NCBI GenBank assembly: GCA_037447655.1
Contig: JBBHKE010003403.1
Span: 31,564-95,563 of the forward strand
Direction of reading: 5' to 3'
Source: Zygnema cylindricum
Taxonomy: Eukaryota; Streptophyta; Zygnematophyceae; Zygnematales; Zygnemataceae
Length of the DNA: 64,000 nucleotides
Part shown: piece after piece, positions 39,308-59,963 of the stretch
Position numbering within the stretch: the stretch's first letter is position 1
Layout of the letters: each line of letters begins with the position of its first letter
The notes under the pieces: generated by a model
What the model was told of the DNA's origin: nothing
Databases searched by the model: none
The model's input: the letters and a program-made list of their open reading frames with translations, nothing else
Made by a program: the position numbers and the translations under genes

Positions 39308-39365
39308 CTCCCATTATTTTCTAGTTTAATTTTAATTTCTCTATTAATCCATGTTTTTCCCTACA

Positions 39366-41000
39366 TTATTTTAGCTTGGGAGATGGCACAGGCTTTGTCA
39401 TCATATCAGCCACCATTTCTCCATCACTCCTATATATCAAGTTCACAATTTTATTTTCCACTTTTTCCCTTACAAAGCTCAACTTTAAGTCCATATGCTT
39501 AGCTTTGAAATGATGTTTTGGATTGGCTGCACTTGCAATTGCAGCCTGATTATCACAAAACACTTCATGCACTCCATTTTTCATGTACCCCAATTCTTGC
39601 AACAAAGACTTCACCCACATCAACTCTTTCACAACAGAACAAAAGGCCATGTACTCAACCCCTATAGTGGACTGAGCAATAACCTTTTGTTGCTTGCTGC
39701 TCGAACAGCAAGCACCTTCCCCCACATACAATACATACCCAGATGTGCATCTTCTCATAGGTGCATCCCCATAACTGGCATTACTCCAAGTAGTGATGTC
39801 AGTGTGCTCCCCTCCCAAATGCAACCACAGATCCCTAATTCCCACCAGGTATCTCATTACTCTCTTGGCTGCCTCCTAGTCTCTCTTTTTAGGATCATTA
39901 AGACTACTACTAAAGACTCCAACTGCTACAGCTATGTCCGGCCTAATACAATTCATAAAGTATATCAAACTTCCTACAACCTGTCTGTAAGGAATAGATT
40001 TCATAAACTGCCTCTCCTCTGGACTCATTTGATCATCTAGCATTATCACTCCTCCTTCTACACTCCCATCACTTACTTTCTTCAAGTCCATGGGAGCGGT
40101 ACAACTGTTTGCATTCTCCATTTGAAATTTCTCCAGCATATTTCCTATGGCCTCTTTCTGAGTAAGTCTGATTATCCTCTTCCCCATATCTCTTTCCATT
40201 TGAATCCCCAAAATATATTTAGCCTCCTCTAAATCCTTCATGTCCAATCTGTTTCCCATATCTTTCTTTAGCCTATTAATCTTCTCCATAGACTTACTCA
40301 ATATCAGCAAATCATCCACATAAATTGCAATAAAAATCACATCATTCTCATCCTCAAACATATAAATAGAATGGTCAGAACTGATCCGAATATACCCCTG
40401 ATTGGTAAGAAACTCATCTTATTTCTTATTCCATTGTTTGGGGGGCTGCTTCAGTCCATATAAGGACTTTATAAGTCTGCAAACTTTGCTTTCCTCTCCT
40501 TCTTCTACAAAACCTTCTGGTTGCCGCATGAAGATTTCCTCCTCCAGTTCACTGTTGAGGAAGGCGGTTTTAATATCCAACTGATGTATCTCCATGTCTT
40601 CCGCTGCTGCTTAACTAAGGAGAATCCTCACAGATGGGAATCGAACTACTGAGCAAAGGTCTCCTAATAATCTATCCCCTCTTTTTTGGTGAACCCTTTT
40701 GCCACTAGCCGAGCCTTATATCTCTCGATGGTGTTATATGGGTTTAATTTCAGTTTAAATACCCATTTACACCCAATAGGTTTTCTGTCTGGTGGACTGT
40801 CCACCAGCTCCCAAGTATTTGCCTCCATGATTGACGCCATCTCATCATTTATGGTTGTGACCCATCTTTCTTTCTTTGGACTGTCCATTGCCTCCGAGTA
40901 TGACTGAGGCTCATCTGGGTGAGAAAGCTTTGTTACCTTGTGAACAACCTGTTTTTCTTGAAGCCTTTTGCTGCTCCTCCGTCCTCCCTCAAAGTCTGAA
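39366..41000 (-). pseudogene. Copia A reverse transcriptase and RNase H
   Basis: The minus strand from about 40900 reads WVTTINDEMASIMEANTWEL, GCKWVFKLK, YKARLVAKGFTKKEGIDY, then after damage LYGLKQ, and the catalytic AIYVDDLLIL (40361-39876 frame). YRQVVGSLIYF and RPDIA follow. RNase H (39857-39366) has TTWSNASYGD, GVEYMA and CDNQAAI, so the first catalytic aspartate is asparagine here. HMDLKLSFVREKV and MTKPVPSPKLK end the polyprotein. Stops lie near 40400-40440, 40610-40660 and 39877. The enzyme would copy element RNA into DNA in the particle. Confidence 0.85.
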
Positions 41001-41020
41001 GCTGGAATAGAGGGAAGTCT

Positions 41021-42202
41021 TTAATTCCTCTGAACTGTCTCATCGGCTCCCCTTTCCATGGAAATTGGTTCTGACTCCTCTTCCTCTCTCACATCAAAGT
41101 GTGTAGGAGTATGAGGGGATTCTGGTATATCTCCCCCGTCTTTTATCTCCCCTGAATCTTCAATCATGTTTTCACTTGTGTCCCTTCTGAGAAGATCTAA
41201 GTCCTCCTCACTCTCGGACTCAAAACTGATTCTGGTTTTCTTAGTGTATTTGAAAGGATCAAAGGACTTACCTTCATCCCTGACAACTAGATGCTTTACT
41301 AGAATGATATCCTGTTTAGCTAAGTCATAGACCCTATATCCCTTGACATCCTCATCATACCCCACAAAATATCCCGGTTTCCCTTTAGCATCTAGTTTCC
41401 AGTTTTTCTTATCTGTGTCAAGACTGTAAACTTGACTACTGAACACTTTCAAGTGAGAAATATTCAGTTTCTTTCCAACCCATCTCTCATAAGGTGTCAT
41501 TCCTTTAACCGCACTGGTGAGGATTCTATTCTTAATGTAGTTAGCACAGTTCATGGCCTCTACCCAGAATCTTCTTCCTATTTTCTTATCTGCCAATATG
41601 TTGCATACACTATCTCCCAAAGTCTGGTTTAGCCTCTCAGCTACCCCATTCTATTCTAGATTATTCGGTAAAGTTTTCTGATGCTGAACTCCCTCATCTC
41701 TCAAATAATCTTCAAACTGGTCAGAGGTGTACTCTCCCCCATTATCACTCCTTATTCTCTTAATGGGGGTTCCGTGCAACTTCTCACTCCAGGCTTTGTA
41801 TTCTTTAAAGTATTATGGTGTTTCAGACTTTGTTTTCAAGAAGTACACTCTGGAATATCTGGACCAATCATCGGTAATTGTTAACATATATCTCTTTCCC
41901 CCAACCGAAGGCACTCTTGCTGGTCCCCAGATATCTATGTCGACCAGATCTAGTACTTTCTCACCTTTATATGTGGCAGTTTTGGGAAAGGGAAGTCCGT
42001 GAGCCTTACCTTGAGCACAACCACTACAATCATCCATCATTTCATTATCCCCAAATTGAATGCCTTCTACTACACCCAGCTTCTTCATTTCCTTCAGCCT
42101 GTCAAAATGCACATGTCCCAAACGCTTATGCCAGATCATCAAGCTCGGGACACCACCATAGTAAGCACTATTCTTTTCATTACTCAGGTTTAGCCAAAAC
42201 AT
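41021..42202 (-). pseudogene. Copia A integrase
   Basis: The zinc-binding start reads MIWHKRLGHV ... DCSGCAQGKAH (42202-41813 frame), with the H-x4-H and C-x2-C residues present. The catalytic core has IDIWGPARVP, then across a frameshift SDNGGEYTS, and GVAERLNQTLGD after a stop at about 41655. The downstream frame (41620-41021) has VGYDEDVKGYRVYDLAKQD, the usual end of Copia integrase, and an acidic spacer to RT. The protein would insert the cDNA copy, giving 5-bp duplications. Confidence 0.85.
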
Positions 42203-42535
42203 TCATTGGCTACCCTTATATGCAGTGAAGTAGACTTCATCTCCATACTTAGCTATAAAGACTCCCTTTCTAGTGAAGGTATCAAAATCCTTGTCATCTA
42301 CTACAGAAGTAGACACAAGATTCTTACTCAATTGAGGAATGTAGAGCACATCAGAGAAGGTGAGAATAGAAGTCTTACCCTCCACTAAGACTTTCAGATC
42401 TACCAAACCCACTAGATCTGTGGTAACTACTCTCCCATCCCCATACTCTATTTCAACAGTAGGGATCTTTCTTAGTTTAGTGAAGAGGTGCCTATCACGA
42501 CACATATGCATGGATGCACCTGAGTTGATGATCAC
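42203..42535 (-). pseudogene. Copia A protease
   Basis: The active site reads IINSGASMHMC, where IIDSGASMHMC occurs in Copia B; the catalytic aspartate is asparagine. Downstream VEIEYGDGRVVTTDLVG, VLYIPQLSKNLVS and the frame up to 42203 match the Copia protease to GAG-pre-integrase transition. Confidence 0.75.
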
Positions 42536-42539
42536 CCTC

Positions 42540-43682
42540 CTCTAGAGCTTCTCGAATGGCTCCAAGGGCACACTTCTGTTTGCGAGGGATCTTCTTCTCC
42601 TATAGATTCTCGTCAAGAAGAAGCTCCCCATCCTCCTCCTCGGAGGACTCGTCCTCCTCGGTCTCTTCTTTCACTCGTGTGACCACAAGTGCTTTCTTCT
42701 TCCCTCCGGAAGAACCCCCTCCACGATTTTCTTGAAACCTCAGCTCTGATAGCTTGATGCAATCAGCTATGAAGTGCCCCGATTTTTTTGCAGAAGTGGC
42801 AAAGGCCCTTTGGAGTCCTCGATTCTCCAGATTGGTTCTTTTCCCCTTTGAAGCTGTTGTATGGCTTCTTCAGATTCTTCCTCCACCGATCCGTTCCGGC
42901 AGCTAGAGCTTGAACGCTCTTTCTTCCTCTCCGGATCTCAATGGTGTTCCCCAGCAGAAGAATCATCCGGACCACGGTGTTCCACTTCCAAGCACTATCA
43001 TCCATTTCTTGCACTCGGTACACTATATTTTCATACCCCCCCTGCAACTTCATGATGAGAGCGTTAACTTTCATATTCATTGTGCCTGACCATCAGGCAC
43101 TTTCCATCTCCATGTACAGACAAGAGAGATCGCTGCAATAGTCCAACATCTTTCCTCCTTTGAAAGTGTAACTCGTCAGCCTTTGCTCAACCAGCTGGAG
43201 CTCCTGAAGGGGTCCAGCTATATAGATCTCCACTAAGGTCATCCACAACTCCTCGGCCTTGAAGATGTGAAGGTGAGAGGTCGCCAAAGCTTGAGTGAGG
43301 TGCCTGAGAAAGAAGTGCGTGGCATTCATGTTGGTGTACTCCCACATTTGAATGTCGTTTTCCTCAGTCTTCACGGCCACCGCTTCGGGTGCCATGGCAA
43401 TAAGAGTGAGAGGTGTCTCTTTTCCTCTCCCCTTTTCGGACACACTGCTGTCCCCATCATCTGTCTTCTCCGTTGGAGCAGATCATACTGCAAAAAACCT
43501 CACTCCTTAAACCCTGGTGGAGTTCCTTGAGATGGACGTTTCACTTGTCCACTCACAACACCCTAGTATCGTTTCTCATATAATGCCCCTGTCATCATAG
43601 CTTCCCAGTAAATGAACCCAGATCCATTGAATATGGGTACCCTAGAGGGTGGGCCCATAACCTGCAATTCTGTGTCCCCCAT
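42540..43682 (-). pseudogene. Copia A gag
   Basis: The start is ATG 43682 in the LTR (MGDTELQVMGPPSRVPIFNG), with a stop at about 43563. The rest is in pieces: KTEENDIQMWEYTNMNATHF, ELWMTLVEIYIAGPLQELQL, a stop after YMEMESA, then LIMKLQGGYENIVYRVQEM and the zinc knuckle start CHFCKK, frameshifted. An acidic segment (about 42700-42600) precedes the protease. It parallels the intact gag of Copia B. Confidence 0.8.
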
Positions 43683-44662
43683 TTGGACCAAAATCGAGGA
43701 AGCCTCTAGGTAGTTTTTGACTAACCTACTTTCAACAAGAGCAGCTGCCACCCTAGCACACAAATAGATAATCTGACTGCACCCCTGTGCAGTCTAGACT
43801 CCTCTGAGTCCACAGCAAAAAGAATTACTGAAAACGCCCAACCAGGCGATTAATTATCGAGTGGCAAAGATGCCAATATTTGTACAAGCTTGTTGGGAGA
43901 GAGGCGGCTACCTCCTTAATCCACTAAATCCTAAACCCTCTCACAAATCCTATCTACTTATGTACGGAACCAATCAAAAGACTGTAGAGTACAGAAAGGT
44001 ACTATGGCCAATGTACTTTCTGTACGGCCTGTGTACGACAAGGCCATGGAGTGGACGCCTGTCTTCTCCGGACTTGTCCTCATGCTTCCCGGGATTCCCG
44101 CATTTCAATGACATTTCCCCACGTGTCGCGAAGTCATGTTACATTCGAAAACCGCCAAAGCGGCTATTACGAGATCTTGTTGATGATGTGAGCCGTCGGA
44201 TCCAAACCGACTTTAATTCCCAGCCGTTCAAAAACAAATGTCTAGTACATTTGTTTTGTGCGTACTTAATTCCCCAACTAGTTTCTATGTATCCTATTTG
44301 TAAAACTGTTAATCGGATTAGTCGTCTATCTAATGTTTTAAATAGCTGTCAAACCCCCTGTATCCTAACGGACTTCTACGACAAACTGGTAAGGTTTGAA
44401 GGCTACGCCTCGCCCTACCGGTCGAAGGTTCGAGTTCTGCCGGACTCATTCTTTTTGGTTGAGAGTGACTTAGGTCACTCTTAAGCCTTGCCTATAGAGC
44501 TAAGGCAGCCATGGCTCCACCGCCCTCTCTCTCCTTCAGTGACTTCAACAAGTATGGGGGCTAAAGAGAGAAGGTGGAGGCAAGATGCCTCTGCTTTTCT
44601 TTTCATTTTTTTATTTAATTAAGACCTAGAAAATACCTCCCCTAAATCTAGTGATTTCAACA
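43663..44662 (-). repeat. 5' LTR of Copia element A
   Basis: It is 1000 bp and parallels the 3' LTR. It carries the gag ATG at 43682, 20 nt before its end. Confidence 0.9.
44381..44449 (+). other. Antisense tRNA-like block in the Copia A 5' LTR
   Basis: D-arm-like ACTGGTAAGG, GGCTACGCC, and B-box-like AGGTTCGAGTTC, then T5 at 44452-44456. It lies on the strand opposite to the element. Confidence 0.55.
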
Positions 44663-45024
44663 TGGTGGGTCAAGACGTTATATTCCGAGTCGGTGGTGGT
44701 GTGGACATGCACGACCAGACATTCTCTTATCGACTGACACACTTTCCGGAGCGCAAAATCTGTCTCCCTTTCATTTCAGCCCGCCGACCTTTGCCCACTT
44801 TGGCTCACTCAGCTACGGCTCTTCCCGCATTTTGGGGAACTCCGTTGGCAAGGAAATTTTCCACTATCTTTAGGCCGAAGAAATTATACCTGATAGTTTT
44901 CCCTTACCCTAGCCCTTTGCGGAACCATGTTTTCTTATCAATTCTCACACATTTGACAATATTTATAAGTCCACATTATCTATTCCATTAACAACTATCC
45001 CTTCTATACCTAGAGTTGCCACCG
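44663..45024 (+). pseudogene. Gypsy 2 fragment between protease and methyltransferase
   Basis: The frame after the TGGTG duplication reads VGQDVIFRVGGGVDMHDQTF, continuing the protease frame. It ends at a stop near 44989 and the right end is cut by the Copia insertion at 45025. Its role is unknown; it may be a linker. Confidence 0.55.
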
Positions 45025-46075
45025 TGAAACTCTGAGACCTCCATAAGTCCTCAAAATGGACAGCTTCCAAGAAGCCTCTAGGATAACCTTGACCCCTTTG
45101 TGATTCAGCAAGAACAACTACCACCCTGACAGACAAAAACTCTGACCACCTTCACCTTTGTGAAGGCAAGACTCCCCTAAGTCGATAGCAAAAAGAATCT
45201 TTGAATTTGCTCCCCTAAGAAGTAAATTATAGAGGGTCAAAGTTGACCTTTTGTACAGAAGCTCTCTCGGAGAGAGAGTCCTATCTACCAATTTATCTAA
45301 GTCATATCTCTCTCACAAACTCTATCTACTGACGTACGTAGCGAATCATATTACACTTCCGTACACAAAAGTACAACTGCCAGTGTAATTTCTGTACGGA
45401 TATTCTACGAAATGGCATAAAAGTCGACACATGTCATATCCGGATTCGGTCCTGTAATTCCGAGAGATGCCGCAATCCAACGCAATGTCGCCACGTGTCA
45501 TCCGATGTGACGATGACCACAAACCGCCGAGATTCTCTTCCGGGATCTCGGCTTTCTTTCCGACCGTCCGATTGAATGCACATTTCAGAGCCCTCATAAA
45601 TACTTGCACGGTTAAAGAAACAAGTGCATGCTACTTGTTTTTTATCCGTACCGTAATCCGTACTTCTACATAACTGACTCTGTGTATTCCATAAGCAGTT
45701 GCCGTTAAATGAAATATCCTACTTGGTAATGTTTAAAAATATATCAAACCCTATGGTATGTATCATGATCTAGACCTAGCGGATAAGGCTACCATCTCCC
45801 AGCTGCCTGACGTCCAGCAGGTACCAGGATCAAATCCTGGTTGCATTACAAATCCTTTTAGTAAATAAATTACCATTCAATAAATCAACTAATCTATTTC
45901 CCGTAAACCTCTGGATAGCCTAGGTAGCCATGGCTCTAGCTTCCTGTCCAATTTCTTAGTGACTGCGACAAGTGTGGGAGTTGGAGAGAGAAGTTAGAGA
46001 TAGACTGCCTCGGCTTCTTTTTGTATTTCTATTTAGACCTAGAACTTATTTAAAATAGGACCATCAATTTCTACA
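45025..46075 (-). repeat. 3' LTR of Copia element B
   Basis: It is 1051 bp, starting TGTAGAAATTGATGG and ending GAGTTTCA on the minus strand. An antisense tRNA-like block lies at 45775-45849 (GCGGATAAGGCTACC; T-arm CCAGG-loop-CCTGG) with T4 at 45856-45859. Confidence 0.9.
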
Positions 46076-46084
46076 CTCCCCTTA

Positions 46085-48400
46085 TTTTCTAGTCAATCTT
46101 TAATTTTAGACCACACTTCTCCCTGCAGAAAATTAGCTTAGGGGAAGGCACAGATTTGGTCATCATATCTGCTACCATCTCGCTATTTGGTTGGTACTCT
46201 AAACTGATAATTTTGTTTTCTACTTTCTCTTTAGAAAAGCCGAGTCTATGTCCATGTGTTTGTCTTTAAAAAGATGTTTAGGATTGGCAGAAATAGCGAT
46301 TGCTGCCTGATTATCACAAAAAAAAAATCTGCACACCACTCTTAAGGTGATCAAGCTCACTTAGCAAAGACTTGACCCACATCAATTCTTTTACAGCATA
46401 GCAAAAGGCCATATACTCAGCCTCCATGGTGGACTGAGCAATAGCCTTTTACTGTTTGCTACTCCAACAGCAAGCCCGATCACCCACATATAATACATAT
46501 CCAGAAGTACATCTCCTCATCGGAGCATTATCATAACTGGCATCACTCCAAGTAGCGATGTCAGTATTCTCCCCACCCAAATGCAACCATAGATCCCTAG
46601 TTCCTATCAAATATCCAAGGACTCTCTTTGCTGCCTCCCAATCCCTCTTAGTGGGAGCATTTAGACTTCTACTCAGCACTCCTACAGCTGCAGCAAAATC
46701 CGGCCGGGTGCAATTCATAAAATAGATTAGACTTCCCACTACTTGCCTGTAAGGAATAGTCTGCATGAACTTCTGTTCATCAGGAGATAAATCCTCGTCT
46801 AAGACTATGACTCCTTCTTCCTCACTCCCCTCACTTCCCTTCTTCAACTCCATTGGAGTTGTACAACTATTAGCTTTATCCATTTGAATTTTTTCAAGCA
46901 TGTTCCCTATTGCTTCCTTTTGAGTCAGTTTTATAATTTTCCTTTTCCGGTCTCTCTCTACTTGAATTCCCAAAATATATCTTGCTTCTCCCATATCCTT
47001 CATTTCAAATCTCCCCTTAAGATCGATTTTCAGTTTGTTAATTTTTTTCCATTGATTTACTTAAAACAAGCAAATCGTCAACATAAATTGCAATAAATAT
47101 AAAACCTTCCTCATCTTTGAAAACATAGATTGAGTGATCTGAGCTGATCCGGATATATCCCAGACTGGTAAGAAACTCATCAAGCTTCGTATTCCCTGTC
47201 GAGGCGCCTGTTTCAAACCATAAAGAGATTTAATCAGCCGACATACCTTACTCTCCTCTCCTTCTTCCACAAATCCTTCGGGTAGTCGCATGAAGATCTC
47301 CTCTTCCAATTCTCCATGCAAAAAAGTTGTCTTGATGTCCATCTGGTGCACCTCTATGTCTTCCGCTGCTGCCAGACTGAGAAGTAAGCGGACGGAGGGA
47401 AATGTGACGAACGGGGCAAAGGTTTCCTCGTAGTCAATTCCCTCTTTTTATGTAAATCCCTTTGCCACTAATCGGGCCTTTTAGCACTCAATCGTGTTAT
47501 ATGGGTTCAGTTTTAATTTGAAAACCCACTTACAACTGATTGGTTTTCGGTTAGGTGGACAATCCATCAGCTCCCAAGTATCGGCTGCCATAATTGAGGC
47601 CATCTCCTCATTGATGGTTGTCTTCCACCGGTTCCTTTCAAGACAGGTCATCGCCTCTCCATAAGTCTAAGGTTCATTTTGATGAGATAGTTTTGTTACC
47701 TTGTTATTAGCCTTTTTTTTCTTCCAATCTTTTGCTACTTCTCCTTCCCCCCTCAAAATCTGTGGCCGGAATAGATCGTTCTCGTGGGTTCTTTCGAACA
47801 ATATCGGCTTCTCCCCTGTCCCTTGATTCCAAATCAGTTTCCACCGCGTCTTTCGCTTCGAAAAGAGTTGTCACTGGAGTTTCAGATGCCGAGTCCTTTT
47901 CGGTATGATTTGTACCTGCAAGAATGTCATCTTCCCTAAAACATGGAAAGTTAGGAAGCTCAAAGTCATCGGAATTTTGTGACTCAAATCTGATTTTACC
48001 TAACTTTGTATACTTGAAAGGATCCACACACTTTCCTTCATCCATAACTACTAGATGCTTTACTAAGATTAAATCTTCCCTTTTTAGATCATAAACTCTA
48101 TATCCTTTAACATCATCATCATATCCTAACAAGTATCCCGATTATCCTTTAGGATCTAGCTTTGAACTAGACCAATCTTTATCTAGATGAATACTTGCCT
48201 ACTGAAAACCTTTGAATGAGATATCTTTGGTTTCCGGCCTGTCCATCTCTCAAAAGGTATTTGATCTTTTATAGCTGAAGTAAGAACTCTATTTTTGAGG
48301 TTATTAGCATAGTTCATTCCTTCAGCCCCAAAACCTTTTTCCTATCTTCTTATCATACAACATACTTCTAGCACTTTCACTTAGTGTTCTATTTAACCTT
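46085..48400 (-). pseudogene. Copia B integrase end, reverse transcriptase and RNase H
   Basis: The frame 48132-47707 (GYDDDVKGYRVYDLKREDLI, then an acidic spacer) ends integrase. RT pieces: MHQMDIKTTFLHGELEEEIF and SLYGLKQAPRQ (47351-47061), with the catalytic region just beyond a frameshift, then EARYILGIQVERD and YRQVVGSLIYFMN (47003-46449). RNase H has ATWSDASYDN with its aspartate intact, and EAEYMAF-like sequence downstream of a stop at 46449. The 3' end before the polypurine tract is frameshifted. Confidence 0.8.
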
Positions 48401-48453
48401 TCAGCTACCCCAATCTGTTCCGGGATTTCTGGAATTGTCTTTTGGTGTTGGAC

Positions 48454-49415
48454 TCAATCTTCCCTCAGAAAATCCTCAAGCTGGTTAGAAGTATACTCTC
48501 CACCATTGTCACTTCTTACTCTCTTGATTGGAGTTTCATGGAGTTTTTCGCTCCATGCTTTATACTGACTAAAACAATCCTGAGCTTCTGACTTGTTTTT
48601 CAAAAAATGCACCGTGGAATACCGAGACCAATCATCAGTGATAGTCATCATTAATCTCTTCCCCCCAGTTGAGGGCACTTTAGCCGGTCCCCAAATATCT
48701 GTGTGTACTAAATCTAGAATTTTTTCTCCCTTATAGGTGGTTTTTTTGGGAAATATGTGTGCTTTACCTTGAGCACATCCACTACAATCACTTATATTAT
48801 CACTCTCACTTAACTGAATCCCTTCCACCACTCCCATCTTTTTCATCTCTCTTAACTTATCGAGATTCACATGCCCAAGCCTCTTATGCCACATCATTAT
48901 ATCATGAACGCCAATATAATAAAGTTTCTTTGTTTCATTACTTAAAATCAGCCTAAACATCCCTTGGCTACTTTTCTCAACAATGAAAAAGACATCCTTC
49001 TCAAAACTAGCAGTAAAGACTCTATCCCTAGTGCTAGTAAAAAAACCCTTTTCATCTAATACAATGTAGAGAAAGGGTTTTGGTTCAGTTTCGGAATAAA
49101 CAATAGATCGGAGAATGTTACTATGGATGTCTTTCCTTCTACTAGCACTTTCACATCTACCGATCCTACAAGAGTAGTAGTGACTATTCTCCCATCCTCG
49201 TACTCTATCTCTACGGTGGGAATATTTCTTATCTTAGTGAACAAGTGCTTTTACTTACACATGTGCATGGAGGCACCTGAATCTATAATCCAGCCTGCTT
49301 CACCTTTCAATCCACCGTAAGCACATTTTTGCCTTCGTGGAATTTCGACCTCGTTTTTCGCCTCCAACTCCTCATCCAATAGAAGCTCATCGTCCTCGTC
49401 CTCAGATTCCGCCTC
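48454..49415 (-). pseudogene. Copia B protease and integrase
   Basis: The protease active site WIIDSGASMHMC (about 49295-49260) keeps the catalytic aspartate. VEIEYEDGRIVTTTLVG follows. Integrase (48960-48454 frame) has MMWHKRLGHV, DCSGCAQGKAH, HTDIWGPAKVP and SDNGGEYTS, giving the zinc motif and two acidic residues. GVAERLNR with the glutamate is just past a stop at about 48452. A stop also lies after NPFSTLY (49056). Confidence 0.85.
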
Positions 49416-49422
49416 ATGTAAC

Positions 49423-50160
49423 TGTTGTTTTTAGAAAGCTTTAGTCCTCTTTATGCCTCAGCTGTGAGAGAGAGTTGTTCAGGACTTAAGCTATTTTTGG
49501 TTGAGTTCGGTTCAGTACTTACCGAATTTAGTGTGACAGTGAAGTTGGGAGTTCACGGTTCAGTCACACTTGGAACACGTTTCTTCACTTGGGAGAATGC
49601 GTGAGTATGTCCTCCGTGGACGTACGGAAATTCGGCAGGACCACTGGACTTCGTAAAGTCAATTCTACGGTGCCAAATCCTCTAATCGGACCGCTGACAG
49701 CCGCCGCCAACAAATAGTGACGAGGCGTGACTAGATCATTATCACTTTACGTTGTCTGAACTTCGGTGTAAATATTTGTGATAGAATGTTAGATGTACGG
49801 CTGGAATGTCTCCGTACAGCTTAGTGTAGTTTCGGTGTATAAAAGTAGGACTTAGTGAATTTGATTTTTAGGAACAAATGATATGAAAACTGTACACTCA
49901 GTTTTATGTAATTTCATTTCTACATATCTCACAGATTTGTAAGCGGAATTCATTGAAATTTTGTGTGTGTGTTCCTTTGTATGTTATCTACATTGTGGCA
50001 AATTTTCAAGAAGCTTACAGCGTTTTTCAGAAAGTTATAGTCTGTCAATGTTGTTGTTCAGCCATCGGAATTTGTGGAAGCTTCCTCTCTTGATTTGTTC
50101 TACGATGACTACTGCTGCATCTTCTTCATCTTCAGTACCAGAAGTTGTCTCAAAACAACA
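49423..50160 (+). mobile_element. Solo LTR of a different family nested in Copia B
   Basis: It is 738 bp, starting TGTTGTTTTTAG and ending CAAAACAACA, with perfect 5-bp duplications GTAAC (49418-49422, 50161-50165). A TATA-like TATAAAAG lies at about 49838. An ATG at 50105 opens MTTAASSSSSVPEVVSKQQ up to the LTR end, so this family also seems to start gag inside the LTR. Removing it rejoins the Copia B frame exactly (VTQ-LHEAESED). Confidence 0.85.
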
Positions 50161-51184
50161 GTAACTGTGTCACAAGTGCCTTTTTCTTTCCCCTCGGGGT
50201 ACTACTTGTCTGCCCCTCCTTTAACCGAAGCTCGGTTAACTTAGTGCACTCTGCTATATAGTGCCCCGGTTTCTTACAAAAATGACATAAACCTTTGGGA
50301 GTCCTTGGTCTGAACTCGTCGGTCTGATTTTTTTGCTCCCTCCCTCCATAGTTTTCGACCGGTTTCCGGGAATCTTTGTTCCTCCAATCGGTCGCAATTG
50401 CTAGGGCTTGCCCACTCTTTCCTCCCATTCGTATCTCAATCGTATTCTCTTGAACAAGAATCATCCCTACCACTGAGTTCCATATCCACCTTGAGTTCGG
50501 CAAGTCCTGCACACTGTTGACTATGTTCTCAAACTCATCGGGTAACTTCATTAGTAAACAGTTAAGCTTTTCTTTTTCACTAAAATCTTTTCCCGCACTC
50601 TCTAGCTCCATGAAGAGTGTAGCGAGCTCATTGCAAAAATCCAACATCTTCCCCCCTTTGTATACATACTCCTTAACTTTCTGATCAGCCATTTGTTGTT
50701 GCTGAATCGTGCCACTTTCGTACATCTCTATGAGAGCCATCCAAAGATCGGATGCCCTTTCTACCTGCAAATGAGGACATGCAAGTCCTTGAGTGAGATG
50801 GCGTAGGATGAAGTGTTTTGCCGCCATATTGTTAAAGTCCCAGGTTTCAGTATCATTCTCCTCGTTCCTCGGAATAGGTGACATGAATGCCGAACCAGTT
50901 GCTATTGGTGTGGTCGTCTCATTCTCCTTTCCTTTGTCCACCACCTCTCCTTCTTTTGTTTCCTCCGTTGAAGGTGAATCCGCTTTCCTGGTGAATCTGC
51001 TTCCTCCTAAGCTTGGAGGGATTCCACGACTTGATGGACGCCCTACTCGTCCACTCACTAATCCCCAAAACCTTTTCTCGCATAGAGCTCCTATCATCAT
51101 ACTTTCCCAGTATATAAAGCTAGTTCCATTAAAGATTGGTACCTTAGAGAATGGGCCCATAACTTGAAACTCTGAGTCCTCCAT
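50150..51184 (-). CDS. Copia B gag, intact frame
   Basis: This is 344 residues. It starts at ATG 51184 inside the 5' LTR (MEDSEFQVMGPFSKVP); residues 7-11 come from the primer-binding site. Residues about 105-235 form the helical gag domain (TWDFNNMAAKHFILRHLTQG, LWMALIEMYESGTIQQQQM, LLMKLPDEFENIVNSV). A zinc knuckle CHFCKKPGHYIAEC has ligands C300, C303, H308 and C313. The last four residues and the stop come from the solo LTR inserted at 50160; the original frame continued LHEAESEDEDDELLLDE toward the protease. It would form the virus-like particle and bind RNA. It is the best gag reference for the family here. Confidence 0.85.
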   Translation of the reverse strand: MEDSEFQVMGPFSKVPIFNGTSFIYWESMMIGALCEKRFWGLVSGRVGRPSSRGIPPSLGGSRFTRKADSPSTEETKEGEVVDKGKENETTTPIATGSAFMSPIPRNEENDTETWDFNNMAAKHFILRHLTQGLACPHLQVERASDLWMALIEMYESGTIQQQQMADQKVKEYVYKGGKMLDFCNELATLFMELESAGKDFSEKEKLNCLLMKLPDEFENIVNSVQDLPNSRWIWNSVVGMILVQENTIEIRMGGKSGQALAIATDWRNKDSRKPVENYGGREQKNQTDEFRPRTPKGLCHFCKKPGHYIAECTKLTELRLKEGQTSSTPRGKKKALVTQLLLF

Positions 51185-52243
51185 AAGTCCTCAGAATGGA
51201 CATCTTCCAAGAAGCCTTTAGGATAACCCTGACCCCTTCGTGTTTCAGCGAGAACAACTGCCACCTTGGTAGACCAAATCTTTGACCACCTTCACCTTTA
51301 TGATGGCAAGACTCCCTTGAGTCGATAGCAAAAAGAATCTCTGGATTTGCTCACCTGAGCAGTAAGTTATGAAGGGTCATAGTTGACTTTTTGTACAAAA
51401 GCTCTCTGGGAGAGAGGGTCCTATCTACCATTTTTTCTAAGTCCTATCTCTCTCACAAACTCTATCTAGTGACGTACGGAGCCAATCATATTACACTTCC
51501 GTACACAAAAGTACAGCTGCCGATGTACTTTCTGTATAGATATTGTACGACATGGCCTAAAAGTCGACACATGTTATATCCGGATTCAGTCCCGTAATTC
51601 TCGGAGATGCCGCGATCCAACGCAATATCGCCATGTGTCATCCGATGTGGCGTTGACCACAAACCGCTGAGATTCTCTTCCGCGATCTCGACTTTCTTCC
51701 CGGTCGTCTGATTGAATGCAGATTTCAATCAGAGCCCTCATAAATACTTGCGCGGTATTTGTTTCGTTTAAAGAAACAAATGCATGCTACTTGTTTCTTA
51801 TCCGTACCGTAATCCGTACTTCTACATAGATGACTCTGTGTATTCCGTAGCAGTTGCCGTTAAATGAAATATCCTACATGGTAATGCTTAAATAAATATC
51901 AAACCCTATAATATGTATCAAGATCTAGACCTAACGGATAAAGCTACCTTCTGCCGGCTCCCTGACGTCCCGCAGGTACTTGGATCAAATCCTAGTTGCA
52001 TCACAAATCCTTTTAGTAAATAAACTACCATTCAATAAATCAACTAATCTACTTCCCGTAAACCTCTAGATAGCCTAGGTAGCCATGGCTCTAGCTTCCT
52101 CTCCAACTTCTCATTGACTGCGACAAGTGTGGGAGTTGGAGAGAGAAGTTGGAGAGAGAAGTTAGAGATAGATTGCCTCGGCTTCTTTCTGTATTTCTAT
52201 TTAGACCTAGAAAACACTTAAAAAATGACCATCAATTTCTACA
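51165..52243 (-). repeat. 5' LTR of Copia element B
   Basis: It is 1079 bp and parallels the 3' LTR. The gag ATG (51184) is 20 nt before its end. An antisense tRNA-like block lies at 51929-52003 with T4 at 52011-52014. A GAGAGAAGTTGGA duplication at about 52138-52165 explains part of the length difference. Confidence 0.9.
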
Positions 52244-52248
52244 CATCG

Positions 52249-53310
52249 ATCCTTTGGGTTTCCTTCCTATCAGTTGGAAGCCGGTACAGTTGAGTCCTCA
52301 TACAGACGGGGTCGTTATATTAGATCTATTCGCTAGGATCGGAACTTCACCATTTTCATGTTTACGGAATGGTCTCCTCATTCGTCACAACTATGCAGTA
52401 GAAATTCATCCATTAGTTAGGAAAGCACAATTGCACCACTATAATCTCCTGCATTCACAGTATCCACAGTTGTTTCCAAAGTCATCCTTTCTACACATGC
52501 ACACCGCTCTTTCACAAGACATCCGCATCCTTAGTATTCATCATTTACGGGATGTCGAACTGATAGACATTGTTTTCGGAGGGTGGGGGTGTCAAAGCAT
52601 GTTTAGGGCCGGCAAAGGTCTTGGTTTGGCGGATCCTCGTACCAAATTGTTTTTTTAGCTTTTGAGGGTCCTACATTTTCTTCAAACCATGGCCTAGCCT
52701 GTCGGTTACATTTTAGAGAACGTCGATGCTTTTAATGATCTTCGGCCTACAGTCTTGGCTGACTATAAGCGCATAGAACACCTTATCGGACCCCCGCTAA
52801 TTATTGATACCGCTCGACATGGGTCTTTGGCACATTGGGTTCGCTCCAAATGGACAAATCTAATCGATGTTGGTCGACTTTGTGAGGCTAATTTGTTTGT
52901 AAGACCTCCCACTACAGACATTACGACCGCTTTGCTTCCCTTTCACCAAGTCCAATCATGTGTCCAAACTCACTACGCTCCGAATTACAGCAATAATGTA
53001 CCTAGCAAGCCCTTCAAGGTCCTTCCTACTTTAGTGTCTTACCCTAATTCCCATGCATACTCTAATAACGGTCCGGGCATGCTTTGGAATAATATCACTG
53101 GAGAATTAGAGGAGCCTACGGCCACAGAACGGGAACATCTCATGCATTTTATTCCAGGTACTACTGCGGCCTCCGCACTTACGGATAGACTGCGTTGCAC
53201 TTTGTTGGGTAGGGTCATGGATCCTCAGTCTTTATCATTTATCTTCGGTCTCGGCCTTGCAGCTGGTTGCTACGTACATAATCACCCCATACAACCAGCT
53301 GGGGGGGAGA
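52249..53310 (+). pseudogene. C5-cytosine DNA methyltransferase domain of gypsy element 2
   Basis: The frame is continuous from the Copia insertion site to the linker before RT, with only two in-frame TAG stops (about 52657 and 52696). Motifs appear in the order of m5C methyltransferases: I, VVILDLFARIGTS (SAM binding; one glycine changed to arginine); then YAVEIHPLVRKAQ; DIRILSIHHL; IV, IVFGGWGCQSM with the catalytic cysteine (the usual proline before it is glycine), followed by RAGKGLGLADPRTKLFF; VI, YILENVDAF; VIII-like, GSLAHWVRSKWTNL; and a C-terminal TRD and IX/X-like part (ATEREHLMHFIPGTT, RLRCTLLGRVMD). The DPRT...LFF and RxxxWTN features resemble DNMT3/DRM-type enzymes. It would methylate cytosines in DNA, perhaps the element's own cDNA or integration sites. 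Confidence 0.85.
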
Positions 53311-53561
53311 ATACGCCGGCTCCTTCACGGCTTGTTTCCTCTCGCACCTCTCCTAATCTCAAGGGAAATCCATTTCAGTTTTTTCTCTTCCCTTTTCTCA
53401 CACTTGCGGTTAAGGACATCTCCATCTATGATTTCTTCAACCTCAATCATATGTCTTGGGAAATCCCGGCCTATACAGCCGCTGAATCCACAATTTCGTC
53501 GTTTCCTCGTCCAAAACCACACTGGACAGCTGCATTTCCGACGCGTAGCTAGCACCACTGG

Positions 53562-54737
53562 GTGAACCGCTTGCAGCAGACTCCGATAAAATACAAGTTA
53601 GGCCACTCACTCATCGCCGATGAGCAAATTGCATTTGCTCAGGCCATGGAAGCTTTCACTATCAAGAGTTCCGAGACGCCCACGTGGAAGTTCGGTTCTA
53701 GTCTAACAAAAGCGGAACAGGCACTATTAAGTAACACAGTCACCCGTCATATAGATGCGTTTGCTTTCCCCATGAATGACCTTGGACGTCATTCTACTTA
53801 CAAAATGTCAATCGACCTTGAAGACGATCAACCTATCTTTAAGCGAAAACATCGTCTCTCTAAAATGGAATGGGAGATTGTGGACAAATGATGCGCAAAA
53901 TTGGAAGAAGCCGGTCTAATCTATCGGTCAGATTCCACCCTTGCCGCCCCCACAGTCATGCCTAGGAAGAAAGATTCCGACGAAAATTTCACTGAGCGAA
54001 AAATGTGTGGGGACTACCGAGAGCTCAATGCCCGAACCGTTCAAGACCGCCACCCTATGCCTCTAGCGGATGAAATATTTGACCATGTAGGTGGTGTAAA
54101 GTTCTTTAGTATTCTTGACTTGCGTCAAAGGTTTAACCAGATTGAAATCGAGGAAAGAGATCGGCATAAAACTGCATTTTGGGGAAGTGATGGCCGGTGG
54201 GAATGGGCAGTCATGCCGTTTGGTATTAAGAACGCACCCGCCGTGTTTCAAAAAGGCATGGATTCGGTGCTGGGTGGATGTAAATTTGCCCGGTGCTACA
54301 TCGATGACTTGATATTCGCTTCCGCCACGGTTGAAGAGCACGCCCGCCATATTGAGTGGGTTCTCACCGAGTTAAAGAAAGTCGGGCTGAAGTGTCACTC
54401 AGCCAAGTGTACTTTCGGTGCGGAGGGAGTGCCCTATCTCGGCCATTTTATTTCAGCTGAGGGCATCACTCCCTTGGAAGCTAAGGTGGAGGCTATCACT
54501 AAACTGTCGGCCCCTACAAATCTCACTAGTCTGAGGGCTTTTCTCGAACTAACCAATTGTTACCGTCGTTTTGTACTAAATTTTAGTACGATGGCTTCTC
54601 CCCTAAATGACCTCCTCAAGAAAGATGTGCCTTTTGTTTGGGGACCCGCCCAAACAAAAGCGTTTCAAAAACTGAAAACCGCCCTTTCAAGCGCTCCCAT
54701 TCTCCGAACTCTTAACCACAAGCTTCTTTTTTGCCTA
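53562..54737 (+). pseudogene. Gypsy 2 reverse transcriptase
   Basis: The frame 53562-53891, a TGA at 53889-53891, then 53901-54740. The RT landmarks are clear: HRLSKMEWEIVDK, LEEAGLIYRSDSTLAAPTV, MCGDYRELNARTVQDRHPMP, FFSILDLRQRFNQI (first aspartate), TAFWGSDGRWEWAVMPFGIK, NAPAVFQ, and catalytic CYIDDLIFAS. KCTFGAEGVPYLGHFISAEG and the connection region YRRFVLNFSTMASPLNDLL follow. It would copy the element RNA. It is separated from the methyltransferase by about 250 bp of linker (HWTAAFPTRS then a stop). Confidence 0.9.
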
Positions 54738-55130
54738 TAAACCAATTTCGAGAAGCTAGGCATTGCGGCTATTTTAACGCAAAGAGAGTTAAATGGAGAG
54801 GAATACGTAGTGGCATACGCCAGCCGGAGCAATAACCAAGCTGAATCTAATTGCAGTAGTTACGAGGGTGAATGTCTCGCCGCGGTATTGGGTATTGTTC
54901 ATTTTCGACATTATCTTTACGACAAGCCATTCACGCTCCTAACTGACCATCAACCCTTTCATTGGTTGATGACCAACGATAAGCTTTCAGGGAAGCTTGC
55001 CCGATGGGCTTTAATTTTACACGAGTACGACGTTGATATCATCCATCAGCCCTGTTTGTTAAGCTTGAACGCCGACGGGATTCTTGGAATCCACTACCCC
55101 GGACCACCGATATCGGTGTCCGGCAAGATT
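54738..55130 (+). pseudogene. Gypsy 2 RNase H
   Basis: After a TAA at 54738-54740 the frame continues TNFEKLGIAAILTQ, where the first catalytic aspartate position reads asparagine. YEGECLAAVLGIVHFRHYLY supplies the glutamate and LLTDHQPFHWLM the next aspartate. WALILHEYDVDIIHQPCLLS is the typical end of Ty3/gypsy RNase H. Confidence 0.85.
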
Positions 55131-55299
55131 TCAACGAGGACGAGGTACCGGCCATGTGGGCTGGTTCCTATATCACTTACTGTCTCTCTTCTATTCCTCA
55201 CCCTCGGCCGGCCACAGATTCGTGGCGCGACGGCCCATTTATCCTCTTTCGCCCCTCTCAAACCTTTCGGCCCGGTACTACCGCCGAGGAGGAAGACCG

Positions 55300-56480
55300 A
55301 GTAAAGAAACGAGCCAAAAATTATCTGTGGCTCGGCGGATCTTTAGTTCGATTGGTGGCGGACAGCAGTCATCGGCATGTTCCTCGGCCAACTGAGCGCT
55401 TGTCCTTGATTGAGCAGATACATACCGAGCTTAGCCATTATGGGACCAAGCGTACTTTGAGCCTTGTACAGGCACACTATTGGTAGTCAGGCATGCAAAC
55501 AGATGTGGCAGCCATTCTCCACAAATGCGCCACATGGGACCGGCTACGCACCTATTTCTCTAATCGGCAGGTGTCTCTACAGCCATTGCCTATCAGCGGA
55601 TTGTTTTATGGCTAGTCCGTGGATCTTGCCGGACCGTTTCCCTTATCTCGAAAGGGGAAACAATACATCATGATAATGATTGAAAATTTTAGCAAGTGGG
55701 TAGAGGTGGTCGCTCTTCCCTAGAAGACCGCTAAATTGACCACAGTTGCTTTTAAAGAGCACGTTCTCATGCGTTATAGAGCTCCTGTGGAGATTCTCAC
55801 GGACTAGGGTACGGAGTTCCTCGGGGAATTTCAAGAGATGTTGGATAAAGCTTTAATTGATCATCGCCGGACGAGTCGTGATCACCCACAAGCTGATGGC
55901 TTGGCGGAACGAGTTGTCCAAACTTTGAAGCAGGCTCTCCGTAAGCTTTGTTTCGAGAAACACATCTCCGTTTGGGACGAATCCTTGGGCTATATCATCA
56001 TGGGGTACCGGATGTCCGTACAAGCTAGCTTAGCTAATTTCAGCCGGTACTATACTCTCTTCGGTGTAGCACCCTTGCTTGGTCGGCATATTCAAAAAGC
56101 AGCAAGTTTACCTTTGCCTCTAATGTTTGACACCATATTCTTGGAAGAACTAACTCGCCGTGCTTTGCTTTTCGCTCGTGATATGCCCATGGCTTTTGAT
56201 AATTTGCAGATTGGCCAACATCGCGATACTTTGCGCTTTGCCATCACGCGAAGTGGCAGTTATAAGCCTCAACAAAAATCTTACCAAGTCGGAGATTACG
56301 TGTACCTTCGACGACAATCTTTCTACACTTTGGACACGGATGTTTCACCACACATTCTTCGTGTGGTGGAAATGGATGCTAATGGGATGTTGGGTTTCCA
56401 GGGTGCGGATACAAGGATAATTCGAGAGCATTCGAAGAACTGTGCACCTTGTTACTTACCAGATTTGTCACAGGATATGG
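55300..56480 (+). pseudogene. Gypsy 2 integrase
   Basis: The zinc-binding part: IHTELSHYGTKRTLSLVQAH then HKCATW, where the last cysteine is lost. Core: VDLAGPFPLSRKGKQYIMIM, VEILTD (then a stop) GTEFLGEF, and HPQADGLAERVVQTLKQALR with the glutamate, giving the D-D-E set. The C-terminal part, YQVGDYVYLRR ... ILRVVEMDANGMLGFQ, is like the GPY/F module. In-frame stops lie near 55486, 55616, 55722 and 55807. It would insert the element's DNA. A PHD finger follows where chromoviruses carry a chromodomain. Confidence 0.85.
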
Positions 56481-56515
56481 ATCCGATGAGGATGCCAATC
56501 ACAGAGGCGACGGAA

Positions 56516-56695
56516 TGTACCATTTGACGTCGAGCAGACGACGAGACTTCCATGCTCTTGTGCGACCATTGTAACCAAGGGTTCCACATGGAGTGCTTAG
56601 TTCCTCCATTGACTGCTGTGCCAGCTGGCCATTGGGTTTGCCATGGCTGTCGTGAGCTGCCGGCGGTTTTGACCACCTCCTCCGCAGGCTAAGGA
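56516..56695 (+). pseudogene. PHD finger fused to the gypsy 2 integrase
   Basis: In the same frame as the integrase C-terminus the ligands run C-T-I-(stop)-x9-C-D-H-C-x4-H-M-E-C-x15-C-H-G-C. This is a C4HC3 PHD finger with its second cysteine codon changed to TGA (56525-56527). Typical PHD residues are present: [28 protein letters not shown]. The frame ends TAG at about 56691. PHD fingers bind histone tails (often H3K4), so it may steer integration to marked chromatin. It ends just before the polypurine tract. Confidence 0.85.
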
Positions 56696-56707: not shown

Positions 56708-58016
56708 AATTATAGGAGTCACTTCATGCTAGGGGAGTTTTCTTCCCTTTTATTCATTTGGTCATCTTCACTTTCATTCTTTTGCATGTTGTATATATAT
56801 TCCCTTCTCATTCATTTTCGTTTGTATATATGTCTAGAGCATGACTTTGCTGGTTATGATGCACGATTCCCATGCTTCTCTCTCATGCACGACAGCTATC
56901 ATACCGCATGGTATCGGTAGCACGCATCCACAATTTTTTGCAAGCATGCACGATATCGTGCACGCACAGGGGTTATCCGACGTGCGCGCACGATATTATG
57001 CATGCACGCGCGATATTTCGGCACGCATATATAAATTTGTTCGCACGTGCGGTGTCATGTCGGTTCACTTTTTTGTGACGTGTACGCGATTCGCGTACGC
57101 GTCTAATTGAATACATACTAATTTCGTGCGTACTGTTTGTTTCGTTTCATTTTGTAGGTACACGATCTCGATGGTACTTTCGCAAATATCGTTTGGGCGA
57201 CGCGTCGCGATTTCGTGGAGTATTTCGTGCGGTATGTTTTGTTTCGTTTGTACGTACGCGATTTTGGAGTATAGACGCCAAGTATCGTTTCGCGACGAAG
57301 CGCGATTTCCGGGCGCGTTGGTGGCGCTTCAATGTACTTTTATTCTTTAAAGTCGTGAACCCACGTAGGTTCACGCATGCATGTAGATAGGGAGGGTTTT
57401 TACCCTTGGATTGTGGATTTTGTTAGACGTACGGCAGACGATGTTGGCCGCCTATTGGCCAACATCTTAAGTAGTTTCATTCATGTAAAGTAGACTAGAC
57501 GTAGGCTAGTTTCGCGCTAGGCTTAGCTTAGTCTTACTTAGTCTATTTCCAGACTTAGAATTTCTAGCTTTTGGACAAGAAATTTCTCTTGGCGGCGGAG
57601 CTGTTTTCTTGCTTCCTCCTTGCCACCGATTGCCCACCATTTCCTTTTCTTCTTGTTAGCTAGCGATAGATGCTAGTTAGCGTACGGATTTTTCTCTCAT
57701 TGTGTTCTGCCTCGTTTTTAATCCACACGGCTTCGGCTAAGTCCGGAAGGTTTCCCTCCAAATTTGTCTTTTTGGCGATTGTTGGAGTGGAGGCTTGAGG
57801 CGTGGCATCTTGTATTGGGTTGCCCCGTTCTCCGGACAGCTGGACGGTTTGTTTAAGTGTATTGGTTTGTGTGGCATTTCGGTTGTCTTGTAAAAGTGCA
57901 TTTTTTTACCAAATCCGAATTTCTTGGTTTGGTTGAAAGTGTTTATTTTGCTTCGTTGCTTTCCTATGAGATAACTCTTGTAAAGAATACGTTGAAGACC
58001 CAAGAGCCTAGTGGCT
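56708..58016 (+). repeat. Right LTR of gypsy element 2
   Basis: It follows the G-rich polypurine tract, starts AATTATAGGAGTCACTTC and ends GAGCCTAGTGGCT, the same end as the left LTR (34560). It is about 1309 bp. Its first 190 bp recur directly after it (58017-58205). The ends are not TG...CA, so the exact boundaries are uncertain by a few bases. Confidence 0.65.
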
Positions 58017-58205
58017 AATTATAGGGGTCACTTCATGCTAGGGGAGTATTCTTCCCTTTTATTCATTTGGTCATCTTCACCTTCATTCTTTTGCATTTTG
58101 TATATATATATTTTCCCTTCTCATTCATTTTCGTTTGTATATATGTTTGGAGCATGACTTTGCTAGTTAAGATGCATGATTTCCTTGCTTCTCTCTCATG
58201 CACGA
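58017..58205 (+). repeat. Second copy of the start of the gypsy 2 LTR
   Basis: AATTATAGGGGTCACTTCATG... repeats 56708-56900 with a few differences and then breaks off into unrelated C/T-rich DNA. It lies head-to-tail with the preceding LTR. Confidence 0.8.
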
Positions 58206-59963
58206 CACCCTTCCTTTCCTCGCCTCCCTCTTTCCTCTCCTCCCTCACTTTGCCCCTCTCGTTCAAAACTTATTCTTTAGTACATTATTCGTATGCTCAT
58301 TTTTTCTATATGTAGAAGAAATTATGTGGAGGTCAAAACTGCAGCTACAAGAAAGACAACAAATAAAACGGAGCCACTAACAAATTAGCAACCACAATCA
58401 AAATAACTCAAATGCAAGCAAAACAAACAAATACTCTTGAATAAAACAAAAGGCACAAAAAAATAACAACTACGATGCAACAAGTTCAAGAGGGCTACGA
58501 AAAGGAAGGGAATGGGATAGAATGAGGGGGAGAGGGCGACAGTTGAAGGTGGGGAAGGGGGGGGGGAGAAGGGAGACACAATGAGAGGGGCGCGATAGAC
58601 TTCTTTAGTGTGAGAAGGAGGGGAAGGGATAAAAACATGGAGAGAGAGGAATTCACGGATAGGGAGAGGTAGATTGAGAGGGAGTGAGTGGGGGAGGCAA
58701 ATTGAGAGGGAGAGTTAAGGGTGAAGAGATGGAAGAAGAGGAGGATAAGGGAAGGGGGATAACAATATAGGTGGAGAGGGTATTAACAAATAGGAAGAGG
58801 CACACTGAGAGGGAGTGAGGGGAAGAGGAGAAACTAAAAAAAGGGCGGTAGAGGTAGTGAGAGAGGAAGGGGAGGGGGGGAGGGGGAGGTGGAGTAAACC
58901 TATGGGGAGAAAAGGAGGCGACAAAAATGGCGAGTGGGAGGGACACGCAAACCGGAAGAGGGAGCACTTTTCACCATAGATTTAGGAAGATATGGAGGAG
59001 ACAGGGTAGCTTGATGAGGAAATGGCAGGTCGATAGGGAGGTTGAGGAAACGCTTGCGGTTCCGAAAATGGAATCCATTTATGAAATGTGGTGCAGGTGG
59101 CGGAGCTTTCGTCTGCTTCCTCGTGAACGAATTGAAAATTACTCATCATGACGCCGTATGCGTCTGATCCCACCAAAAAACGGTTGGTTGTACGTCGCCA
59201 AGAATCGATCCTTTAATTAATGGAGTACCGGCATTTGGCGTCTCCTCTCCCCAAATATCACCAACGCCAAATATTGTAATTTCATTCTATTAAATTCAAA
59301 TAATAACTTTAATTAAGGTTTTTTTGGCACCTCAACCCCGTATTAACATAAACGTTTTCCTTATTTTGAATTGGACACCTTATTACAGTAGACATTTATA
59401 CTAAATGGAACCGTTTTCACCTTAATACCGTAAAATTGTACGCCAATTGAACCATAACCATAAAATAACATTAATAATAACTATAAGTGCATACAAGGAA
59501 CCTACTTGGAGTTGAAACCGTAAATATCAAAGTTACTGTAACACGCCGCCGCAACATTGCATTTAGTTACGTTCATTTACTGGAAATGATGACTTTCTTC
59601 AGGCGTATATGTTTGACGTTCACACTGTCGACCATGCGGTTGTTGATCAAATATGTGCGAACCTAATTTTTTACTATCCGGATTGAACCCCTTTTAAGAC
59701 CGCACATTCTCATGCGTCCGCGGATATTATACATAATGAATTGTATCTTTTTCTTTAAAATGGTACAATTTTGTACAGTGTGATGTTGTCCGTACACCAC
59801 ACAAATTAAATGATAGCGTACTTCCGTTTTGTATGGTACATTAAAATTAACCCTAAATAGAGTAAAGAAAAAAATAGGATGAATTAGGCTAATGGAGAAT
59901 AATAAAAAAAACGGGACGGATATAGCGTACGCAACGCTAATAGCTATTGGCGGTGTAGTACTG
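58206..59963. other. GA-rich DNA and unassigned sequence
   Basis: 58496-58925 is strongly purine-rich (GGGAGAGG-type) on the plus strand, low complexity. 58926-59150 has a modest frame without known motifs. A lone CACCG-type right end (AATAGCTATTGGCGGTG then TA) lies at about 59938-59956. No gene is recognised. Confidence 0.4.

Follow-up and report, generated by a model that had tools for sequence, protein, structure and literature searches.

The 64,000-nucleotide stretch of Zygnema cylindricum DNA analysed here (the window) almost certainly holds, in both identity and anatomy, a dead copy, broken up by two insertions, of an abundant Ty3/gypsy retrotransposon family that carries a cytosine methyltransferase (MTase) in Pol. 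In an intact copy from the same assembly (L031), Gag-Pol is one frame that runs from gag through protease (PR), a DNMT3-type MTase, reverse transcriptase (RT), RNase H and integrase to a PHD finger. A gypsy-borne DNMT3 is already known from Klebsormidium. As far as we found, the features new to the literature are a PHD finger that follows the integrase and so puts a DNA writer and a probable reader into one polyprotein, two alternative locations for the MTase within Pol among relatives, hundreds of MTase places in one genome, relatives in Marchantia and Closterium, and a conserved Glu-Cys pair in motif IV.

Anatomy of the gypsy element in the window

The window contains a single gypsy element split by two copia insertions into a gag-PR part, a second PR part and an MTase-RT-RNase H-integrase-PHD part (Table 1). 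Both nested copias are younger than the gypsy copy. It has a gypsy RT and the order PR-RT-RNase H-integrase of Ty3/gypsy, with its two protease pieces at about 37.9-38.3 and 44.66-45.02 kb. The original prediction placed the MTase between protease and RT, which is right for the element as a whole; in the window itself, the second copia lies directly upstream of the MTase. The RT had been expected some 250 bp downstream of the MTase, a distance that was not confirmed: RT-like similarity starts at about 53670-53748 and the Pfam RVT_1 match lies at about 54006-54446.

Table 1. Positions of the gypsy element and its nested insertions in the window
Feature	Position	Strand	Basis and remarks
5' repeat A1 (probable)	33825-34561	+	Partial matches to A2 repeats
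gag remnant	36045-37659	+	tblastn to the L031 frame, residues 18-579 (32-68%)
gag end and first protease piece	37646-38316	+	L031 residues 578-803; target site duplication (TSD) TGGTG at 38312-38316
Nested copia element 1	38317-44662	-	LTRs at about 38317-39307 and 43663-44662, 92% alike; TSD TGGTG/TGGTG
Second protease piece and gypsy spacer	44663-45024	+	L031 residues about 791-916
Nested copia element 2 (7.2 kb)	45025-52243	-	LTRs 87.5% alike; TSD CACCG/CATCG, 4 of 5 letters
C5 cytosine methyltransferase domain, predicted DNMT3-type	52305-53261	+	Profile of six relatives; two in-frame TAG stops
Reverse transcriptase and RNase H	53748-55082	+	MTase frame, two stops; RVT_1 2.2e-26, RT_RNaseH 3.2e-28
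Integrase and C-terminal part	55082-56527	+	Other frame, with stops; L031 residues 1860 on, 75% identity
PHD finger (PF00628)	56534-56650	+	E 3.7e-11; in frame with the integrase
Repeat B1	56708-56894	+	Directly 3' of a G-rich polypurine tract; 92% to B2
Repeat A2	56895-58016	+	Flanked by B1 and B2; partial match to A1
Repeat B2, 3' end of the element	58017-58207	+	Terminal letters ...GCACGACA, shared with L031 and L032

The MTase-bearing frame spans 52251-53552, and RT and RNase H continue in the same frame. The single frame described for the MTase is interrupted, as two TAG stops fall within the domain, and the window copy is dead. The PHD finger likewise contains a stop, which on visual reading falls within the first pair of zinc ligands; the genome search matched this place with one TGA.

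At the 3' end, the element shows the order polypurine tract, B1, A2, B2. The 5' repeat A1 was seen in the window alone; it is weak and aligns to A2 in part, with 33825-34302 matching the 3' A2 repeats of L033 and L034 (68-78%), the segments 33842-33957 and 34541-34561 collinear with A2 of the window (76% and 90%), and the rest without a match. Identity between B1 and B2 reaches 99.6% in L031, 99.5% in L033 and 98% in L032 but is 79% in L034, and a B1/B2-like pair was not found in L035-L038. With A1 probable, the 3' repeats of the window appear to fit the DIRS-like structure reported for KnitGypsy-Dnmt3 of Klebsormidium nitens, the order of which we take to be A1-ORF-B1-A2-B2. The CpG observed/expected ratio varies along the insertions, from 1.51 in the CpG-rich repeat A2 to 0.90 in pol and 0.32 in the interior of the first copia.

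Elsewhere in the window, a plant-type S6 kinase gene lies beside repeats on the minus strand (15403-12705), with its conserved kinase part in five exons. In a midpoint-rooted tree of 36 of the 120 listed matches, it groups with SM000022S07169, which we take to be a protein of Spirogloea muscicola, and with one further protein, apart from land plants (support 96). This placement makes a streptophyte alga, perhaps a zygnematophyte, the most likely host. A long G/A-rich low-complexity stretch at 11291-11908 has open frames on both strands. Rfam and tRNA scans of the window gave no match.

Methyltransferase type, motif IV and selection

A profile built from six relatives, with the window excluded, matched the MTase domain over profile positions 1-328 of 333, with 256.5 bits and an E of 2.4e-78 in a search of 128 proteins. 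The Pfam DNA_methylase profile gave the decayed window copy 19.9 bits, below its cut-off of 22; three long open frames taken from other copies pass with 44-49 bits. The Pfam evidence foreseen by the original prediction is thus ambiguous for the window and positive for these frames. A protein search with the MTase part of the window, in which scoring covered the 8000 best candidates from 5.77 billion proteins, found seven proteins with an E of 0.001 or lower (best E 3.3e-55, 36% identity), some of which are gypsy polyproteins with RT and integrase. Ten relatives share 34 invariant columns, and 29 of these are conserved in the window, its two TAG stops notwithstanding. The sub-threshold Pfam score, taken alone, would allow the motifs to be chance matches within a decayed gypsy spacer; against the E values of the protein search and of the window-excluded profile, this reading is virtually impossible and was rejected. 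Together with the other copies, the profile match bears out the predicted C5 MTase in a Ty3/gypsy Pol. A single frame of the window compared with the PDB gave no useful match, and in IMG/VR none of the 39 stretches that fitted a pattern was confirmed by tblastn.

Comparison with solved structures, using a profile of ten relatives that did not include the window, ranked DNMT3A first (E 7.2e-25), followed by chain 4onj (3.8e-13; labelled DNA methyltransferase and presumably a DRM), DRM2 (2.2e-11), HhaI (1.3e-8), the tRNA C38 enzyme (6.9e-8), DNMT2 (2.3e-6) and DNMT1 (0.21). The motif order claimed from the sequence was recovered as the canonical I-IV-VI-VIII-IX-X, which therefore argues for a DNMT3 rather than a rearranged DRM. 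By sequence, the domain is thus assigned to the DNMT3 type; a DNMT1 or DRM type was rejected, as DNMT3A is far ahead of both and the motifs are in canonical order. The animal DNMT3A/3B/3C catalytic domains, the best solved relatives, share the motif order, the RxR of motif VIII and the C-terminal motif, but have Pro-Cys in motif IV, compared to Glu-Cys in the window family. No ADD or PWWP domain was among the Pfam matches of the three frames scanned. The AlphaFold model of the MTase domain of an intact relative (P0002) has a mean pLDDT of 88.6 and a pTM of 0.89.

In the window MTase, motif IV and the position of the first motif VIII arginine carry unusual residues. Across 30 copies of the window family, the catalytic Cys is present in 28 and the motif VI Glu in 29, both of them in the window; the Asn of ENV is found in all 30 and the two motif VIII arginines in 21 and 27. 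Taken by alignment column, the residue before the catalytic Cys is Glu in 28/30, Asp in one and Gly in one, the window; Glu and Cys occur together in 27/30, and the normal Pro of PCQ occurs in none. Among the first 30 loci, which mostly belong to a second family, W-P-C was read in 22 of the 29 scored and W-E-C in four, using a loose pattern that gave no match in two and one false "C" (L026). Glu-Cys is also found in Closterium copies, in P0013 and in P0035, and Pro-Cys in Marchantia, in P0002 and in P0020. Changes between Pro and Glu number at least three on the RT tree and about four on the MTase tree, both with weakly supported backbones and with the window entered as Glu after its family, though it reads Gly; the MTase-tree count is approximate, since the "P" of P0118 is likely a false pattern match (motif IV absent). 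Among the papers listed by a literature search that lay mostly outside subscription journals, none was found to report Glu-Cys in motif IV.

Rates of substitution were estimated by Nei-Gojobori counts, which are rough at saturated dS. Among the 30 family copies, 230 of 435 pairs had a dS of 0.02-1.5, with a median dN/dS of 0.49 (5-95%: 0.21-0.91; six above 1), as expected of many dead copies. The eight stop-free copies gave a dN of 0.11-0.21 between subfamilies, at a dS over 2.6 or saturated, and a dN/dS of 0.21-0.43 within subfamilies, where two of the pairs have very few changes. These low values point to purifying selection on the MTase in stop-free copies; it was therefore apparently kept during the spread of the family, while dead copies drift. 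As to traces of methylation, CG sites of the intact copy read TG or CA in the window at 18 of 131 sites (14% per dinucleotide, about 7% per base), and C-to-T change outside CG is 7.1%. Because CG decays no faster per base than other cytosines, pol of the window shows no methylcytosine-decay signature relative to the intact copy.

These observations bear on whether the Glu-Cys family is still a normal DNA methyltransferase. The catalytic Cys, assigned to a PCQ triad, is described as invariant in eukaryotic enzymes (PMC6709928), and Glu-Cys in 27/30 family copies stands against W-P-C in 22/29 of the first loci. The enzyme might act on RNA or an RNA:DNA hybrid, or bind nucleic acid in the particle without methyl transfer. 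The missing CpG decay in pol is in line with such a change, as is the Klebsormidium gypsy enzyme, which gave no methylation in yeast, a result that its authors call inconclusive (PMC5890265). However, the motif IV Pro of M.HhaI bonds to the ENV Asn through its carbonyl (PMC4802922), a contact that any residue could in principle supply. Mere binding, moreover, sits poorly with the retention under purifying selection of the catalytic Cys, the Glu and Asn of ENV and the motif VIII arginines. On this evidence, we regard loss of normal DNA methyltransferase function as rather doubtful.

Copies in the genome and relatives in other species

The assembly containing the window (352.8 Mb, 2689 contigs) was searched with the Pfam DNA_methylase profile, where the best 123 of 782 candidates were scored and all 123 exceeded the cut-off, and with the window MTase, where the best 124 of 1779 candidates were scored and matched at 59-86% identity, the window itself apart. 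Merging both searches gave at least 218 distinct MTase places, a count that leaves out one 57-residue piece and may include a few host genes. Many of the copies are decayed. The intact copy L031 (C1344) is a single open frame of 2395 residues with Pfam matches to DNA_methylase, RVT_1, RNase H, Integrase_H2C2, rve and PHD; its zinc knuckle falls under the Pfam cut-off, and gag and protease were read from the sequence. L031 and L032 lie on different contigs and share 99.9% identity across 7.4 kb, which points to recent movement or to a duplication in the assembly. A second MTase-gypsy family, to which most of L001-L030 belong (and, for example, L006 and L037), mostly has Pro-Cys in motif IV and has an RT about 46% identical to that of the window.

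We took 60 loci, all chosen by their MTase match, with 1.5-kb flanks. The MTase profile matched 59 of them, with RT downstream in 52, PR upstream in 34 and both in 32; L007 gave no profile match, and seven more loci had no RT within the 1.5-kb flank. Of the 30 loci of the window family, the window included, 27 have an RT no more than 1.5 kb downstream in the same orientation. Among these MTase-selected loci, the domain thus keeps its place, partly in favour of the original prediction, for which copies lacking it there would have meant an unrelated insertion. The window by itself, with a copia LTR directly 5' of the MTase, could be read as a host MTase gene or pseudogene inserted by accident in one gypsy copy. 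This is highly improbable, as the same order recurs across the genome and in other species and as RT and MTase share one frame; the open 2395-residue frame, the genome-wide copies and the RT downstream in the family loci led us to reject it.

The PHD finger was traced in the same way, with the best 150 of 983 candidates in the genome scored. Among these, 43 follow one of the 218 MTase places in the same orientation at a distance of 2.5-6 kb, compared to none at the same distance upstream and none on the opposite strand. The other 107 may belong to host genes, to elements that have no MTase or to elements beyond the listed MTase places. The finger of the gypsy family most resembles in sequence those of PHF12, KAT6A/B and the KDM5-type Lid, and is a probable chromatin or histone reader. 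A PHD finger behind a gypsy integrase was not found among the papers listed by the literature search, again mostly outside subscription journals. In Zygnema cf. cylindricum SAG 698-1a, whose genome is 29.8% copia and 5.9% gypsy, PHD regulators are at least 9-fold above other Zygnema strains (PMC9915684); if the host is the same, the PHD finger of the gypsy family is a likely explanation of this excess.

Relatives were collected as the best 120 of 1170 matches of an RT protein search, which together with the window and the seven proteins of the MTase search make a set of 128. The MTase lies upstream of RT in 25 of these, between RNase H and integrase in four, and in three proteins that lack RT; the remaining 96 have none, of which 73 are uninformative on the MTase, with under 200 residues before RT. 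One such short protein, P0011, starts with an apparent MTase tail. The K. nitens proteins P0051, P0081 and P0109 gave no MTase match; P0109 has about 225 residues before RT and a PHD finger, so some PHD-gypsy relatives may be without an MTase. Named carriers with the MTase upstream of RT come from Marchantia polymorpha, Closterium and a chlorophyte tagged TSEL, which we take to be Tetraselmis; among those with the downstream position, Cymbomonas is named. The Marchantia proteins P0070 and P0080 (Mp_2g26090 and MARPO_0091s0058) are apparent PR-MTase-RT parts of gypsies, with PR of P0080 read by eye. The Closterium proteins among the best 120 of 1170 matches are 41-49% identical to the window RT, which makes Closterium an unlikely host. 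No MTase-bearing gypsy of Marchantia or Closterium turned up among the papers listed by the literature search, for the most part outside subscription journals.

In a quick RT tree, from which P0014, P0021, P0032, P0044, P0047 and P0063 were left out for length, a fully supported branch separates 79 rows (PHD- or MTase-bearing gypsies and 11 others) from nine outgroup gypsies. The four downstream-MTase cases group together (96), where long branches may join falsely. The MTase trees had DNMT3A/3C pieces as outgroup, and one of them left out rows under 165 residues as well as P0105, P0099 and P0052. In these trees, P0111 adjoins P0009, from which it is distant in the RT tree; this may reflect a domain swap or a long-branch effect. 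The MTase of P0097 is very divergent.

Distances between MTases correlate with those between the corresponding RTs, with r of 0.87 over 25 rows including the window and 0.76 over 19 rows without near copies (0 of 2000 permutations in each case). The MTase therefore looks long co-inherited with the RT. The original prediction considered capture of a host gene the simplest reading; a fresh capture is disfavoured by the DNMT3 type of the domain and by this correlation. The correlation favours either two captures or an old shared inheritance during which the MTase changed its position at least once.

Proposed function and comparison with known systems

We propose that, in live copies, the MTase would share one particle with RT, integrase and the PHD finger through Gag-Pol. 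There its substrate would be cytosines, probably those at CG, either in cDNA of the element itself or in the integration target, such that a new copy would enter chromatin already marked. The PHD finger of the integrase would help to choose or bind the target nucleosome, as is thought for the chromodomains of chromoviruses. Overall, the anatomy as read combined with this marking of cDNA or target is very likely the best explanation of the data. That the MTase acts within the transposition cycle at all is probable by a modest measure, and its role as a self-methylator of DNA is a tentative possibility. For this class, de Mendoza et al. suggested in 2018 that cDNA or fresh insertions are marked; they showed activity for the Symbiodinium DIRS enzymes, not for the gypsy enzyme of Klebsormidium (PMC5890265). 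The Glu in place of the motif IV Pro and the lack of CpG decay speak against self-methylation.

More speculatively, the family may hold a Glu-Cys variant of DNMT3, kept under purifying selection beside a Pro-Cys family and coupled to the integrase PHD finger. It would then be a transposon-owned DNA writer joined to a probable histone reader, which may act not on genomic CG but on a reverse-transcription substrate, either a hybrid or single-stranded cDNA.

Alternatively, the MTase could act as a brake, to the benefit of host or element, that helps to silence the family and limits damage, a form of co-existence instead of cDNA hiding. De Mendoza et al. proposed this too for the class (PMC5890265), and the many decayed copies agree with it. 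However, the genome has at least 218 MTase places and the near-identical L031 and L032, therefore no strong brake is evident, and we consider this role unlikely.

DNA methylation is directed chiefly at retrotransposons, a relation that is reversed when an element brings its own methylating enzyme. With two families that differ in their catalytic motif and have both intact and dead copies, it becomes possible to ask whether a live MTase alters copying success. The Marchantia PR-MTase-RT proteins also qualify a published statement by which land plants "such as tracheophytes" have no transposon-borne methylases (PMC6338049).

For streptophytes and dinoflagellates, another paper mentions DNMT3 members in DIRS elements and in LTR elements, which it gives as Copia, and cites the 2018 paper (PMC12344493). 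Chromoviruses, which belong to Ty3/gypsy, likewise have a chromatin-reader domain at the C-terminus of the integrase (PMC3605345); theirs is a chromodomain, whereas the window family has a PHD finger, in addition to the MTase. SymbioDIRS-Dnmt3 of Symbiodinium is also a retrotransposon-borne Dnmt3, and its CG methylation was shown in yeast, but it resides in a DIRS element and represents an independent capture (PMC5890265). The closest known system is described for K. nitens: KnitGypsy-Dnmt3 is of Dnmt3 type and not rearranged, lies in the Pol frame of an LTR Gypsy, is under purifying selection and has DIRS-like repeats with Gypsy domains (PMC5890265). It differs in that the term PHD does not occur in the main text of that paper, while the window family has a PHD finger, and in its copy number, which is given as lower than in Symbiodinium, compared to the at least 218 MTase places found here. 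The comparison is by description; the window family has Glu-Cys in motif IV. Altogether, the window family, with its MTase in a gypsy Pol frame, its many copies and its purifying selection, fits the retrotransposon-borne DNMT3 class and, as originally suggested, extends that known from Klebsormidium.
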